Assembly: GCA_030149625.1 (NCBI GenBank)
Contig: JASLHP010000120.1
Location: 1 to 5,380, forward strand
Length of the DNA: 5,380 nucleotides
Reading direction: 5' to 3'
Source: Solirubrobacteraceae bacterium
GTDB lineage: Bacteria > Actinomycetota > Thermoleophilia > Solirubrobacterales > Solirubrobacteraceae
Shown here: piece after piece, positions 1 to 5,380 of the stretch
Layout: every line of letters starts with the position of its first letter
How positions within the stretch are numbered: position 1 is the first letter of the stretch
Position numbers and translations under genes: made by a program
Notes under the pieces: model-generated
What the model saw: the letters and a program-made list of their open reading frames with translations, nothing else
What the model was told of the DNA's origin: nothing
The model's database searches: none

Positions 1-538
1 CCGACCCTCCTCCGGACGCGCCGCCGCCCGAGGAGCCGCCCGAGGATTCGCCGCCCGACGAGCCGCCGCCAGATGAGCCCCCGCCGGATGACCCGCCGGC
101 GCCGCTGCCCGTGGAACCGCCGCTCGGCGTTTCCGAGCCGCTGCCGGCCGAGCCCGGCGTCGAAACCGCAACTTCAGGCGTGGTCACCTTTACTTCCGGC
201 GTCGCGACGCTCACTTCGGGCGTTTTGACGCTCACGCCGGGGAGGCTCACGCCGACGCTCGGCACCGTCACGCCGACGCTCGGCACGGTGACGCCGATGC
301 TAGGAAGCGAGATGCCCGCAGCCTGTCCGCCACTGCTCGACGGGCGCGGCGGCGACACGCCGATCGCGGGCAGCGCCACATCGACACGCGGCAGCGTGAC
401 GGCCACGCTCGGCAGCGTCACGTTCAGCCCCTGGGCGCGCGCGGGAGCGCCGCCGGCGAGCAGCGCAAGCGCGCATACGAGCGTCGCGGTCGCGGCGGCC
501 CACACGCGCACGAGGCGCCTGGCCGCCACGGCGCTCAC
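1..538 (-). CDS. Secreted heptapeptide-repeat protein with Gly/Ser-rich tail (C-terminus beyond window)
   Basis: This is a partial gene: 179 codons are visible before the left edge. I place the start at the GTG at 538-536. There is no in-frame ATG before the signal peptide, and a GGAG (546-543) lies 4 bases upstream; a second GTG 9 bases further in is the alternative. Residues 1-35 form a signal peptide: Arg-rich start (RRLVR), hydrophobic core (about 14-31) and a cleavage site after ARA35. Residues 42-62 and 78-126 hold ten seven-residue units of pattern [LVT]-P-x-[VI]-x-V-x (LPSVAVT, LPRVDVA, VPSVGVT, TPEVKVT and similar), split by a Pro/Ser/Gly insert. From about 129 the chain is a Gly/Ser linker (SSGGG repeats) that runs off the window. 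The alternating V-x-V pattern suggests short beta strands. The gene starts 25 bases after the anti-sigma kinase stop, so it is probably the last visible gene of that operon. I recognise no named family. An exported surface or wall-associated role is inferred only from the signal peptide and the low-complexity composition. Confidence 0.8.
   Translation of the reverse strand, partial: MSAVAARRLVRVWAAATATLVCALALLAGGAPARAQGLNVTLPSVAVTLPRVDVALPAIGVSPPRPSSSGGQAAGISLPSIGVTVPSVGVTVPSVGVSLPGVSVKTPEVSVATPEVKVTTPEVAVSTPGSAGSGSETPSGGSTGSGAGGSSGGGSSGGGSSGGESSGGSSGGGASGGGS
161..415 (-). repeat. Ten 21-bp coding repeats (heptapeptide units)
   Basis: Three units (415-353) and then seven contiguous units (307-161) of 21 bases each encode [LVT]-P-x-[VI]-x-V-x. 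The two units at 286-266 and 265-245 are almost identical in DNA (19 of 21 bases), which points to recent tandem duplication. The units towards the C-terminus (TPEVxVx) have drifted in sequence but keep the period. The two blocks are separated by 15 residues rich in Pro, Ser and Gly. Confidence 0.85.
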
Positions 539-563: not shown

Positions 564-980
564 TCACGCGCGCGCCTTGGACAGACGTACGGTCGTGCCC
601 GCGGGCTCGACGCACAGCTCGACGGTGTCCATCAGGGCGACCATCAGGGGAAAGCCTCTGCCGCCATCCGTGCGCGGCGCGGCGCCGGCGCGCGGCGCGG
701 CGAACGTGCCGTAGTCGCGCACCGCGAGCGTCAGGCGCTCGCCGTCGTCGAGCACGCGCAGGTGGATGCGGCCGTGCTCGTCGGGGCGCCCGTGCCTGAT
801 CGCGTTGGTGACCGCCTCGTTGAACGCGCACACCACGTCCTCGCGGCACTCCGCGTCGAGACCGAACGCGGCGGTCGCCTCGCGAGCGTACTCGCGAGCG
901 CGCGCGAGCTCCGAAGGACGCGCCTGCAGGCGCATCTCGCTGCGGACTGTGGGGCCGGCTTGTTCGAGCGTCGCGCGCAC
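564..980 (-). CDS. Anti-sigma regulatory factor, serine/threonine kinase of the RsbW/SpoIIAB type
   Basis: The 138-residue product is a GHKL (HATPase_c) ATPase. Proteins of this family bind a sigma factor and inactivate their STAS antagonist by phosphorylating it. The N box is EAVTNAIRHG (55-64), with Glu55 and Asn59 at the places of the catalytic base and magnesium ligand of SpoIIAB. The G1 box is RDYG (88-91), the Gly-rich lid is GGRGFPLM (106-113), and the closing GTTVRL (128-133) is typical. All key residues are present, so it should be active. The GTG start at 980 lies one base after the STAS stop, implying translational coupling. An ATG at residue 16 (935) is the alternative start and would still keep the whole fold; neither has a convincing Shine-Dalgarno. 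The gene order STAS then kinase matches rsbV-rsbW and spoIIAA-spoIIAB, but no sigma factor gene follows. The next gene is a secreted repeat protein, so the target sigma factor must be encoded elsewhere. Confidence 0.9.
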   Translation of the reverse strand: MRATLEQAGPTVRSEMRLQARPSELARAREYAREATAAFGLDAECREDVVCAFNEAVTNAIRHGRPDEHGRIHLRVLDDGERLTLAVRDYGTFAAPRAGAAPRTDGGRGFPLMVALMDTVELCVEPAGTTVRLSKARA

Positions 981-981
981 G

Positions 982-1365
982 TCACGCCGCGCTACTGAGC
1001 TCCAGCAGGGCCTCCTCGCGCGAGTGATGCAACGCGATCAGGCTGTCGACGCCGGCGATCTCGAAGATTCGCGTGACCCGTCTGTTCTCTTCTGCACACA
1101 CGACGGCGAGGGTGCCGCCGCCCTCTTCGTGCAGGCGCATGACCGCGCCCACGAGCACACCGATGGCGGTCGAGTCGATGAACGTCACCTTCGAGAGGTC
1201 GACCACGAGCCGTCTCGCGCCGGCGTGGATGCGATCGGCGAGGCACTCCCTGAGCTTCGGACTCGCGTCGAAGTCGATGTCGCCGCCGGCGACGAACATC
1301 GCGAGCTCCTCGGAGTGCTCCCAGCCATCGACCGACACGTCGTCGCTGATGTAGAAAAAGCCCAT
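982..1365 (-). CDS. STAS-domain anti-anti-sigma factor (RsbV/SpoIIAA type)
   Basis: The 127-residue cytoplasmic protein is one STAS domain, close to the usual 110-120 residues of the family. The core reads FVAGGDIDFDASPKLRE (24-40), then VVDLSKVTFIDSTAIGVLVGA (54-74). Ser65 in the D-S-T motif matches the phosphorylated serine of RsbV (also DST) and SpoIIAA. The expected role is to bind the anti-sigma kinase when unphosphorylated and so release the sigma factor; phosphorylation by the kinase downstream resets it. The start at 1365 is chosen because GGAGGAG sits just upstream (1375-1369). The frame stays open to an ATG at 1464, but that extension has no SD, crosses an AT-rich palindrome and shows no STAS-like sequence. 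The gene is first in the run, with the kinase one base behind it. Confidence 0.92.
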   Translation of the reverse strand: MGFFYISDDVSVDGWEHSEELAMFVAGGDIDFDASPKLRECLADRIHAGARRLVVDLSKVTFIDSTAIGVLVGAVMRLHEEGGGTLAVVCAEENRRVTRIFEIAGVDSLIALHHSREEALLELSSAA

Positions 1366-1368
1366 CTG

Positions 1369-1375
1369 CTCCTCC
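1369..1375 (-). promoter_or_regulatory. Ribosome binding site of the STAS gene
   Basis: GGAGGAG lies three bases before the ATG at 1365 (four if counted from GGAGGA). It is the only good SD in front of any candidate start of this frame, so it decides the start and excludes the 33-residue upstream extension. Confidence 0.75.
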
Positions 1376-1421
1376 AATGCTTGGTGGCGGTATCCCGCTC
1401 TCACATCTTCGGCGATCTCAA

Positions 1422-1439
1422 ATAGTTCTATAGCACTAT
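1422..1439. promoter_or_regulatory. 18-bp near-perfect AT-rich palindrome upstream of the STAS operon (candidate operator/promoter)
   Basis: ATAGTTCTATAGCACTAT is self-complementary except for one pair (1427/1434), so 16 of 18 bases match. It lies 57-74 bases upstream of the STAS start, in an AT-rich patch within GC-rich DNA. On the minus strand it contains TATAGA and CATAGT, either of which could be part of a -10 element, but I find no good -35 at proper spacing. It could be a binding site for a dimeric regulator over the promoter. No regulator gene is visible here. Confidence 0.45.
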
Positions 1440-1452
1440 GTCTCCAGCCAAG

Positions 1453-1489
1453 GTAGTGCGGCACCCGATCGCCTTGAGCACCGCACTAC
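1453..1489. repeat. Inverted repeat with 9-bp perfect arms (GTAGTGCGG / CCGCACTAC)
   Basis: The arms at 1453-1461 and 1481-1489 are exact reverse complements separated by 19 bases. The repeat lies between the stop of the secreted protein (1525) and the STAS operon. As RNA it could form a hairpin at the 3' end of the upstream transcript, but no U-run follows on the minus strand, so it is not a standard intrinsic terminator. A regulator site or a factor-assisted termination/processing hairpin are the options. Confidence 0.5.
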
Positions 1490-1524: not shown

Positions 1525-2847
1525 TCAGCCGAGCGTCACCGCCGTGCTCGCCGTCGAGGCCGGCCCGCCGACGCTCGCAAAGCGCGCGTCGAGCGTCAAG
1601 CGGGCGCTCCTGTGGTGTCTGCGCAGCGATGCCGCCGCGGCCTTCGTCAGGGTCACGCGTACCGTGAGCCGCTCGGCCTTGTCTGTCTGCCTGCTCACCG
1701 AGCGCACGCCCTTGCCCGCGATCGTCAGGCGTCCCGCGGCTGGTACCCGCACGACCAGCGTGACGACGCCGCGCCGCACCATGCGCTTGAGGATCGCGAC
1801 CTTCGCGGCCGTGGCAGCGGCGCCGCCATGCGCCGTCGAGCCCTGAGCAGCCGGCTCGTCGACGACGAGCGTCACGCCGCCGGGTGTCGAGGGGCCGCCG
1901 CCGGCGCCACCCGAGCCACCGGCGCCGCCGGCCGACCCTGAGTCGTTGCCGCCGGACGCACCGCCGCCCGAACCTCCGGGCCCGCCCGCGCCCGAACCTC
2001 CGGACCCGCCGCCCGCGGGGCCTTCCTGCGCGGGGCCCAGCAGGCCGAGGTCGAGCCCGTCGAGCCCGTCGAGCACGCCCAGCGTCTTGCCGTCGGACAG
2101 TGGCGCCGTCAGCGCCATCGCGGCTGCCGGCAGTTGCGAGCTGGTCGTGCCGAACTCCGACGCGAGGCCTTCGGCGGTCGTGCCCGCCGATTGCGCCACT
2201 TCTTCGACCGTGCCCGTGGTGAACGGCTCACCGGCCAGCGTCGATCCGAGCAGTGTCCGCAGGCTTTCCGGGTTCGACGCCCCGAGCACCTCTTCGATCA
2301 ACTGCTCCGGTTCGCCCGGTTCGCCCGCGGAGCCGAGCAGCTTCGCCAGCAGCTGACTCGCGCCGACCGAGCCGAGCGCGCCTTCGAGAACACTCGACAG
2401 GCTCTTGCCTTCGAGCAGCGCGGGGAGGTCGTTCAGCTCTTCGAGCGTCAGCAGGCTGAGCAGTTGCGAGCGCAGTTTCGAAGCCAGTTCGCCCGAGCCG
2501 AGCAGTTGCCCGAGGGTGTCGCCGTTGCCCGCAAGCTGCTCGATCACGTTCTGCAATCCCGCCCGCAACGAGCCTTCCGGCAAGGCGCTGAGACCGGGCA
2601 GCTGCGCGAGCGTTTCACTCAATCGCGCAGCTGGAAGGTCTCGCAAAGGGACGCTTTCGAGCACTTCTTCGACTTCGCCGGACGCGAGCGGCGACACCGA
2701 CACCGCAGGCTGCGCGACGAGGGGACCGACCGCCGCCTGCGCCCCCGCCGGAACCGACAGGACCACCGGGACAGCACAGAGTGCGACGGCGACCGTCGCC
2801 ACCTTCCTGCGCAGCAGCGCGCTCCTCCACATCCACGATGCATGCAT
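1525..2847 (-). CDS. Secreted protein: Leu-rich helical region, Gly-rich linker, C-terminal beta domain
   Basis: The product has 440 residues. The start at 2847 is chosen for the strong AGGAGGT six bases upstream (2860-2854); an ATG 11 codons earlier (2880) has no such site. Residues 1-38 form a signal peptide (RRK at 13-15, hydrophobic 16-32, cleavage after AQA38). Residues about 55-270 are rich in Leu, Glu, Gly and Ser and look like a chain of short amphipathic helices (for example EVEEVLESV, SKLRSQLLSLL, EQLIEEVLGA), ending in an LDGLDGLD repeat. Residues 277-324 are an almost pure Gly/Ser/Ala/Pro linker. Residues about 348-440 form a beta-rich domain (VVTLVVRVPAAGRLTIAGKG ... LTVRVTLTKA ... 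LTLDARF ... TAVTLG), which I recall from secreted proteins of Solirubrobacterales. Its function is unknown; an exported, possibly surface-linked role is inferred. No LPXTG motif or closing membrane segment is visible. It has its own AT-rich upstream region and is separated from the STAS operon by 159 bases, so it is probably a separate transcript. Confidence 0.85.
   Translation of the reverse strand: MHASWMWRSALLRRKVATVAVALCAVPVVLSVPAGAQAAVGPLVAQPAVSVSPLASGEVEEVLESVPLRDLPAARLSETLAQLPGLSALPEGSLRAGLQNVIEQLAGNGDTLGQLLGSGELASKLRSQLLSLLTLEELNDLPALLEGKSLSSVLEGALGSVGASQLLAKLLGSAGEPGEPEQLIEEVLGASNPESLRTLLGSTLAGEPFTTGTVEEVAQSAGTTAEGLASEFGTTSSQLPAAAMALTAPLSDGKTLGVLDGLDGLDLGLLGPAQEGPAGGGSGGSGAGGPGGSGGGASGGNDSGSAGGAGGSGGAGGGPSTPGGVTLVVDEPAAQGSTAHGGAAATAAKVAILKRMVRRGVVTLVVRVPAAGRLTIAGKGVRSVSRQTDKAERLTVRVTLTKAAAASLRRHHRSARLTLDARFASVGGPASTASTAVTLG
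1876..2019 (-). repeat. Gly/Ser-rich low-complexity linker coding segment
   Basis: Residues 277-324 of the secreted protein are encoded by repetitive GGC/GGN and TCN codons. The segment separates the helical part from the C-terminal beta domain. It resembles in composition the linker at the left edge of the window (1-154), though the exact repeat unit differs (GGSG/GGAG here, SSGGG there). Confidence 0.7.
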
Positions 2848-2853
2848 GGCTAT

Positions 2854-2860
2854 ACCTCCT
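2854..2860 (-). promoter_or_regulatory. Strong ribosome binding site (AGGAGGT) of the secreted protein
   Basis: A full-length SD match is placed six bases before the ATG at 2847. It fixes the start inside the longer open frame and suggests strong translation. Confidence 0.85.
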
Positions 2861-2902
2861 CGAAACCGTTTGCCGAGCACTTCATCGTGTCGTTATCCCC
2901 GG

Positions 2903-3047: not shown

Positions 3048-4280
3048 CTACGACGCGAGGCGCACGGGCAGCGTCTTCAGCTGATTGATGAACAGCGATT
3101 CGACGGCTGCCGGCCGGCCGTCGAGCGCGATCGTCGGGTAGCGCTTGAGTGTCTCCTCGAGCATCACCTTCAGCTCTAGGCGCGCCAGCGCCGTGCCCAG
3201 GCAGAAGTGCCGGCCGCCGGCGCCGAACGCCTGGTGCTCGGCTTTGCGACGCAGGTCGAAGCGGTCTGGGTCCTCAAAGCGCGTCTCGTCGCGGTTGGAG
3301 GAGACGTACCACATGACGACCTTCTCGCCCTCGCGGATCTTCTGCCCGTGCAGCTCGGTGTCGCGGGTGGCGGTGCGGCGGAAGTGCGCGAACGCTGGGA
3401 ACATGCGCAGCGACTCCTCGACCGCGTCGGGAATCAGCGACGGATCGTCGAGCAGCAGCTGCATCTGCTCGCGGTCTTCCATCAGCGCCCGCATACCGCT
3501 GCAGTAGGTCGCCTTGGTGCTGTCGTTGCCGGCCGCCATCAGCAGGAAGAAGCCCATCACGATCTCGTGTTCCTCCAGCTTCTCGCCGTCGACCTCAGCG
3601 TGCACGAGCACGCTCGTGAGGTCCTCGGTCGGGTTCTCGCGGCGCGCCGCGATCAGCTGGCGGCAGCGCTCGAAGATCTCCGGCAGGTCTTTCTCGACCG
3701 CGCCCTCGAAGCCGTCCGGGTTCAGATCCGGGTCCGCGGCTCCGAGCGTCGAGTTCATCAACCGCGCCCAGATCGCGTCGTCCTGCTCGTCAATGCCCAT
3801 GAAGCTGCCGATCACGCGCGAGACGACCGGCTGCGCGACGTCGCTGACGAGGTCGCAGCTCTCGCGTCCGTCGAGGCGATCGAGCACCTTGACGGCGATC
3901 TCGCGGATCGCGTCCTCGTGCGCGGCGATGCGCCGCGGCGTGAAACCGGCCTGGAACAGCGCCTTCAAGCGATCGTGCTTGGGCGGGTCCATGCCGATGA
4001 ACATCGCCCGGGCGAGCTCGATCGGGAAGCCCGCGGCGGCCACCAGAACGCCGCCGAGTTCGGAGGAATACGTCTGCCAGTCACGGCTGACCGTGTGGAT
4101 GTCATCGGCGGTCGTCACCGACCAGAAGCCGGCCTCCTCGGGGAACAGTTCAAAGCTCTCGGTCCAATGGATCGGGCACTTGCCGCGCATCTCCTTGAAC
4201 ATCTCGTACGGCGGCCCGTCGGTCCACAGCTCCTCCTCGGTGAGTTCCACAGCCTCGATGTCGCGCCCGATCGTCGCCAT
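3048..4280 (-). CDS. Cytochrome P450 monooxygenase, bacterial soluble class
   Basis: The 410-residue product is a full-length soluble bacterial P450, a heme-thiolate enzyme that inserts one oxygen atom of O2 into a substrate using electrons from a ferredoxin/reductase pair. The motifs are in order: MDPPKHDRLK (97-106, C-helix, His102 and Arg104 near heme propionates); AGNDST (250-255, I-helix oxygen-activation motif with Asp253 and Thr255); E289-S-L-R292 (ExxR); PDRF (338-341); and FGAGGRHFCLG with the heme ligand Cys360. The heme loop is one residue longer than the common FGxGxHxC form, a spacing I associate with CYP124/125/126-like families acting on lipids, terpenes or steroids; the substrate here cannot be told. 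The start at 4280 is supported by GGAGG (4292-4288) seven bases upstream. The open frame continues to 4742, but that stretch lies over the divergent ClC gene. No ferredoxin or reductase gene is adjacent, so the redox partners are encoded elsewhere. Confidence 0.96.
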   Translation of the reverse strand: MATIGRDIEAVELTEEELWTDGPPYEMFKEMRGKCPIHWTESFELFPEEAGFWSVTTADDIHTVSRDWQTYSSELGGVLVAAAGFPIELARAMFIGMDPPKHDRLKALFQAGFTPRRIAAHEDAIREIAVKVLDRLDGRESCDLVSDVAQPVVSRVIGSFMGIDEQDDAIWARLMNSTLGAADPDLNPDGFEGAVEKDLPEIFERCRQLIAARRENPTEDLTSVLVHAEVDGEKLEEHEIVMGFFLLMAAGNDSTKATYCSGMRALMEDREQMQLLLDDPSLIPDAVEESLRMFPAFAHFRRTATRDTELHGQKIREGEKVVMWYVSSNRDETRFEDPDRFDLRRKAEHQAFGAGGRHFCLGTALARLELKVMLEETLKRYPTIALDGRPAAVESLFINQLKTLPVRLAS

Positions 4281-4382: not shown

Positions 4383-5240
4383 ATGCTCGAGCCGATGCCT
4401 CAACCGAACGTGCCGGGCCGCGGGATCGTGGCCTCGTACGGCGTTCGGTTCTGGGTGCTGGTGATTGGCGTCGGAATCGGCGCGGGCTTGGGCGGCGCGG
4501 CGCTGATCGAGCTGCTCCGCGCCGTGCAGCACCTGGCGTGGTCGTATCACTCGGGCGATTTTCTGGACGGCGTCGAACGCGCTTCCGCGGCGCGCCGCGT
4601 GCTGGTGCTGGCGCTCGGCGGCGCGGTCGCGGGCGCGGGCGCGATGCTGCTGGCGCGTCACAGCCCCGGTGAGGTCTCCGAGGCGCTGTGGCTGCGCGGC
4701 GCGCGCGTGCCCTTCTGGGCGAGCATCGCGCGCGCGGTGCACTCGATCGTGATCGTCGCACTGGGCGCGTCGCTGGGACGCGAGGCGGCGCCGCAGCAGA
4801 CGGGCGCGGCGGTGGCGAGCGCGCTCTGCGACTGGGCGAAGCTGCCGGAGTGGCAGCGACGGCTGCTCGTGGCATGCGGCGCGGGCGCTGGCATGGCCGC
4901 GGTGTACAACGTGCCGCTGGGCGGCGCGCTGTTCGCGCTGGAGGTGCTGCTTGGCGCGCTGACGCTGCCGCTCGTGCTGCCGGCGCTCGCGACCTCACTG
5001 GTGGCGAGCGCCGTGGCGTGGATCGTGCTGCCGACGGGCCCGACGTACAAGATCCCGACATACCCGGTGCAGGGCGCGCAGCTGGTGTGGGCGGTGATCG
5101 TGGGGCCGATCGCGGGCCTCGCGGCGGTCGGCTGGATCCGTCTGATCCAGCGCGCGCACGTGCTGCGGCCAGCGGGCTGGGCGCGGTTGGCCGCGCCGAT
5201 CGTCGTGTTCACGGCGTTGGGCGTGCTGTCGCTCGCCTAC
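4383..5240 (+). CDS. ClC-family chloride channel/transporter, N-terminal 286 residues, broken by an inversion
   Basis: This is a membrane protein that conducts or exchanges chloride. Membrane segments are visible at about 23-45, 73-91, 117-131, 161-189, 193-216 and 232-252. The family signatures present are GASLGREAAPQQTGA (128-142), with Glu134 at the place of the gating glutamate, and GAGMAAVYNVPLGGALFALE (168-187). The first chloride-binding motif (usually GSGxP) is not recognisable and is replaced around HSPGEVSEALW (93-103). The position after Glu187 is Val, where proton-coupled ClC exchangers have the internal glutamate, so a channel is more likely than an exchanger (inference). The start is ATG 4383 or ATG 4395; an in-frame stop at 4350-4352 bounds it, and no good SD is seen. 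The ClC sequence stops at Tyr286 (5238-5240). The frame stays open to the edge, but residues 287 onward are not ClC; the true continuation lies on the minus strand of 5240-5380. Confidence 0.88.
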
Positions 5241-5380
5241 GGCGTGAACAGCCCGCCTGGCGCGCCGCTGCCCAGGCACGCCGCGGTCACGAGCGGCTTG
5301 AGCACGAGCAGCACGGCGAGCAGCGCCACGCTCAGCTTTGCCACGAGCGCCATCTGCACCACCGGTTTGCCGTTGCCGAG
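5240..5380 (-). pseudogene. Inverted internal fragment of the ClC gene (47 codons)
   Basis: Read on the minus strand from 5380, the sequence gives LGNGKPVVQMALVAKLSVAL, continues with a Leu/Val-rich membrane helix and KPLVTAACLGSGAPGGLFTP, then hits a stop (TAG, 5239-5237) formed by the junction. The fragment holds the GSGxPGGxFxP motif of the second half of ClC proteins. It is the segment expected directly after the LSLAY that ends the plus-strand gene, bar perhaps two or three residues. It has no start of its own and is not a separate gene. Either the DNA is inverted in place or the sequence is a chimera at a contig end. Confidence 0.87.

Follow-up and report, generated by a model that had tools for sequence, protein, structure and literature searches.

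The ClC gene and its neighbours

The window, i.e. the whole stretch of 5380 nucleotides that was analysed (contig JASLHP010000120.1 of the Solirubrobacteraceae assembly GCA_030149625.1, read on the forward strand), carries at its right-hand end the 5' part of a ClC-family gene, next to it a divergent cytochrome P450 gene and, further to the left, four genes on the minus strand (Table 1). The forward part of the ClC gene, comprising 286 residues, matches the Voltage_CLC profile (PF00654) with an E value of 3.6e-40 over profile positions 21-217, the score being 138.6 bits at a cut-off of 24.8. The ClC homolog set consisted of the best 120 of the 3677 proteins with E < 0.001, to which the forward part is 68-87% identical; with P0002, the identity is 88.7% over 282 residues of the forward part. 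A wider set of 240 proteins combined these 120 with the best 120 of the 311 proteins from a second search, and of 40 related loci that were scanned 17 carry the motif, from which 13 distinct sequences were used. When the forward part was used as the query, which concerns this part of the gene only, a protein match was found in 37 of the 146 genomes of the family, and none of the matches listed from these genomes contains an internal stop; no match nearly identical to the window was found in them.

Table 1. Features of the window, with their positions, strands and the evidence for their assignment.
Feature	Position	Strand	Evidence
Gly/Ser-rich protein, probably secreted (signal by eye)	2-538	-	no Pfam match
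HATPase_c_2 (anti-sigma-factor kinase type) gene	564-980	-	Pfam
STAS (anti-anti-sigma type) gene, adjoining HATPase_c_2	982-1464	-	Pfam
451-aa protein, probably exported (by eye)	1525-2880	-	no Pfam match
Cytochrome P450 gene, divergent from the ClC gene	3048..4280	-	PF00067, E 2.2e-24
ClC-family chloride channel / H+-Cl- antiporter gene, 5' part, residues 1-286 (to Tyr286)	4383..5240	+	PF00654
Probable wrong-join junction; C5240 is a 1-nt overlap common to both sides	5239..5240	.	sequence and related loci
Plus frame open by chance (GVNSPPGAPLPRH...), a false ClC C-terminus	5241..5378	+	chance matches only
Inverted piece, next 47 residues of the same ClC protein (LGNGK...GGLFTP), 141 nt	5380 down to 5240	-	PF00654

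A P450 gene also lies upstream of ClC on the opposite strand in the related loci L001, L002, L005 and L009, with 80.6-86.7% identity, the match being whole in L005 and L009 and cut by the end of the locus in L001 and L002. As this neighbourhood is found in relatives, the junction described below sits in an otherwise normal locus. In genome G002 (L005/L008, contig C114) there is a second ClC copy, which ends at the contig end, at residue 140, and which adjoins a P450 gene that is 87% identical to that of the window. In genome G091 (L031, contig C3, around 1559-2421) three matches that overlap one another together make up a related ClC gene, pointing to a frameshift, either real or due to a sequencing error.

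Among the remaining genes, HATPase_c_2 and STAS form a pair of what we take to be the kind known for partner-switching regulators. The Gly/Ser-rich protein contains degenerate repeats of seven residues, with a spacing of 21 nt in the DNA, for example VTTPEVAVSTPG; this low-complexity DNA is situated at the end of the window opposite to the ClC gene. The 451-residue protein has an N-terminal part that is repetitive and rich in Leu, and also a Gly/Ser linker. The 232 genomes of G001's order yielded no DNA nearly identical to the window, the best long matches, both from G002, having identities of 78% (843 bases) and 80% (411 bases), and no intact ClC gene of the same organism was found in these 232 genomes. 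No relative was found in viral contigs. In a plasmid collection 17 records gave partial matches, none of which covers 80% of the query; the five of the 17 that were listed have identities of 67.5-70.4%, and one of the 17 lies at 80-90%.

The inverted piece and its junction

Past Tyr286, the ClC protein continues on the other strand. The minus strand is free of stops from 5380 down to 5240, where it encodes 47 residues, LGNGKPVVQMALVAKLSVALLAVLLVLKPLVTAACLGSGAPGGLFTP, which match PF00654 with an E value of 1.3e-9 (38.1 bits, cut-off 24.8) over profile positions 222-268. These positions come after 217, where the match of the forward part ends, so that the inverted piece directly continues the same protein. 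It is identical in 46 of its 47 residues to 18 of the 240 homologs and in all 47 to none, and its identity at the DNA level is 87.2% with L001 and 86.5% with L002, which are two Solirubrobacteraceae MAG contigs. In all of the 120 listed homologs, the two ClC parts occur in the same orientation and order and are separated by a linker of exactly three residues, of which the first is Pro (120/120), the second Gln (110) or Glu (10) and the third Leu (114), Ile (4) or Val (2). The inverted arrangement occurs in none of these 120 proteins, which come from a search that favours intact genes. When the forward part is compared together with the inverted piece, only two of 332 positions hold private residues, one of which adjoins the junction; judged by these sequence comparisons, both pieces are ordinary ClC sequence. 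A partner fragment starting at LGNGK and identical in 47 of 47 residues was not present among the 240 homologs listed (best 120 of 3677 and best 120 of 311); among the listed proteins that begin at most three residues from LGNGK, two have at least 30 of the 47 residues identical (36 and 34).

The plus frame also stays open past Tyr286. In the resulting frame of 332 residues the Pfam match reaches as far as residue 320, its score rising by only 2.4 bits (141.0 versus 138.6), which we read as chance, and a search of the tail at 5241-5378 against 121 proteins returned matches at chance level only, with a best E value of 3.4. A gene caller could therefore write a plausible but false ClC C-terminus across the wrong join, which matters for annotation hygiene only. 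An earlier note, made from the letters of the window, had read the plus-strand gene as ClC up to Tyr286 (base 5240), had placed the next part of the protein on the opposite strand past this base, and had regarded the plus frame beyond it as open by chance and its C-terminus as wrong; each of these readings agrees with the profile matches, the forward order in the 120 listed homologs and the search of the tail given above. The note had further proposed that residues 1-286 and the 47 inverted residues be aligned to ClC homologs, and both do align, three residues apart, in 120 of the 120 listed.

The limits of the inverted stretch can be narrowed using the related sequences. The window reads ...GCC TAC before the junction, and the inverted piece starts on the plus strand with (C)GGCGTGAAC, so that C5240 belongs to both sides, completing the Tyr codon and being complementary to the final G of the Pro codon CCG. 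The last base of this Pro codon is G in 12 of the 13 related sequences and C in one. For A5239 to belong to the inverted stretch as well, the next native base would have to be T; it is T in one of the 13 and A in the other 12. Because of these two bases, the inverted stretch most likely comprises 5240-5380, i.e. 141 nt; it would comprise 140 or 142 nt if the native bases differed as they do in one of the 13 relatives in each case. An imperfect inverted repeat pair (4966-4994 and 5285-5313, 79%) is also present, with one arm inside the inverted piece and at no boundary of it, and we take it for the similarity of two membrane segments.

Origin of the inverted arrangement

We consider it highly probable that the arrangement is an artefact of laboratory work or assembly, affecting an ordinary ClC gene of a relative of the Solirubrobacteraceae, namely an inverted (fold-back) chimera that was retained by a de Bruijn assembler. 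Most likely, therefore, we are dealing with a false join of two pieces of sequence and not with a biological discovery. During library preparation or amplification, a strand reading ClC forward to Tyr286 would have been joined to the opposite strand around 150 nt downstream and read back. If the graph lacked the true forward link past Tyr286, or had lost it by pruning at the last k, the contig would have followed the wrong join and would have stopped k = 141 bases further on, at the first k-mer that is also present in the true context. What we infer in this account is the chimeric read itself, the use of MEGAHIT as the assembler with a k of 141, the identity of the window end with a contig end, the presence of the native orientation in the same sample, and that the true link was lost, low coverage being one conceivable cause. 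The earlier note had favoured a fold-back chimera or misassembly over an inversion, and this preference stands, in view of the forward order that all 120 listed homologs show, bounding repeats that do not exceed chance, the lack of a recombinase domain among the window genes and a length that fits k = 141. Its supporting argument, that a fold-back would run back into sequence already contained in the window exactly at the window's end, needs correction, as the window stops 9 nt short of this point, judged by the three-residue linker of the homologs; a better reason for the stop at 5380 may be that a single k-mer node, present in the true context as well, is made up of the last 141 bases.

The extract of the COBRA paper used here (PMC10914622) gives the k-list of MEGAHIT as 21, 29, 39, 59, 79, 99, 119 and 141, and describes how, on fragmentation caused by repeats, the contig ends of MEGAHIT and metaSPAdes mostly carry a sequence of maxK length. 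The 141 nt of the inverted stretch equal the largest k of that list, on the reading that 5380 is a contig end and with 140 or 142 nt as the possible alternatives. Other values of k are in use, and those in the extract of PMC6646334, which reach 123 with MEGAHIT and 127 with SPAdes, count against the argument from k = 141.

The consequences of such a join were followed in a toy edge-centric graph built on L002, with k = 99, 119, 127 and 141 and four chimera lengths for each. With a short chimera, a forward copy and no true link, exactly k inverted bases stood at the end of the long contig in all 16 runs, whereas without the forward copy this contig ended at the end of the chimera (160 nt) and not at k (4/4). 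With a longer chimera there was no long inverted contig, because the chimera restored the true link, and k inverted bases occurred only on short contigs of 2k-1 bases. A fixed inversion gave a contig that continued until the sequence ended (4/4); in a mixed population of both orientations the long contig ended one base after Tyr286 (4/4), and k inverted bases were found only on short contigs of 2k-1 bases. The chimera account therefore needs both a short chimera and the loss of the true link. In this model, the observed form fits a wrong join with the true link absent from the graph and the native arrangement beyond the piece present.

Two genuine inversions have to be weighed against the chimera. 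An inversion of around 150 bp that is fixed in this organism and inactivates the ClC gene, leaving a pseudogene, would be compatible with the sequence up to 5380, which could hold the inverted linker and the 141-nt piece; however, the piece has not decayed, with 46 of 47 residues identical to 18 of the 240 homologs and two private residues in 332 positions, a fixed inversion does not end the contig in the toy graph, and an end exactly 141 nt past the junction would be a coincidence, so that we regard this explanation as very unlikely. Invertible segments within genes are known, and an invertible element is expected to carry inverted repeats and a recombinase. A segment of around 150 bp in an actinobacterium that switches ClC on and off by phase variation, with no visible inverted repeats, has the inverted orientation itself in its favour and nothing else, and we find it scarcely credible. 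A real inversion would mean that an ion channel is turned on and off in an unusual way, which the evidence speaks against: the longest exact inverted matches at the boundaries in the 13 related sequences are of 4-9 nt, compared with means of 5.9-6.8 nt and maxima of 9-14 nt in 200 shuffles of each sequence, i.e. at chance level, which also upholds the remark in the earlier note that no inverted repeat is visible around the piece (the right boundary in this organism itself lies outside the window). Moreover, none of the six genes scanned in the window (ClC, P450, STAS, HATPase_c_2 and the two that have no Pfam match) showed a recombinase domain, a single orientation occurs in 120 of the 120 listed homologs, albeit in a search that favours intact genes, and a mixed population would, in the toy graph, end the long contig at Tyr286.

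Within the chimera explanation itself, the join may be simple, with an overlap of 1 nt, or it may have arisen in two steps, in which the forward strand jumps to the TLAYGV that follows GGLFTP and then folds back through the hairpin CACGCCG/CGGCGTG, giving an overlap of 7 nt. The window at 5232-5246 (CTCGCCTACGGCGTG) reads LAYGV, as in the stretch, mostly TLAYGV, that homologs have after GGLFTP; the window has Leu at residue 284, one of only two private residues in the 332 positions compared, where all of the 120 close homologs listed have Ile, Val or Thr; and bases 5229-5246 match the TLAYGV DNA of L002, which carries the 7-bp hairpin, at 16 of 18 positions. However, Leu does occur at position 284 in 11 of the 180 proteins of the wider set that have the motif (240 scanned) and in two of the 13 related sequences (L019 and L021), the exact hairpin is present in only two of these 13, and the variant requires two events, so that we put it forward as a tentative version of the chimera. 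The choice between the two does not change the verdict of an artefact.

Comparison with known artefacts and with the ClC family

According to the portion of PMC1855051 considered here, chimeras formed in MDA are mainly inverted (406 of 475, 85%), their 3' ends being primed at two or more complementary bases in 76.8% of cases and complementarity being found in 93.5% of the inverted joins less than 10 kb apart. The 1-nt overlap of the simple reading lies below that of most MDA chimeras and is thus a point against the chimera account in this form. As described in the corresponding portion of PMC10908179, inverted chimeric reads occur in sonicated libraries and palindromic ones in enzymatic libraries. 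The join in the window resembles the chimeras of MDA and of the PDSM model (PMC1855051, PMC10908179), as set out in these portions, in that nearby segments of one locus are joined in opposite orientation, but it differs from them in being seen in assembled sequence and not in reads, in its 1-nt overlap and in the absence of an inverted repeat of the PDSM type among those looked for. A PDSM-type artefact with a repeat arm at Tyr286 was considered and rejected as a misfit, with five of 15 bases agreeing in a comparison with L002 counted by eye.

As in the contig ends of maxK length described in the extract of the COBRA paper (PMC10914622), the end stretch is most likely 141 nt long, a maxK named there, and should also occur elsewhere in the assembly; unlike those ends, it is reversed relative to the gene that it interrupts and therefore marks a wrong join. 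Such joins in public metagenome contigs could be flagged simply by a terminal stretch that is inverted and exactly of maxK length. In relation to the PF00654 family, both parts, forward and inverted, are like ordinary ClC sequence, whereas the gene is interrupted in the window and runs in forward order in 120 of the 120 listed homologs.
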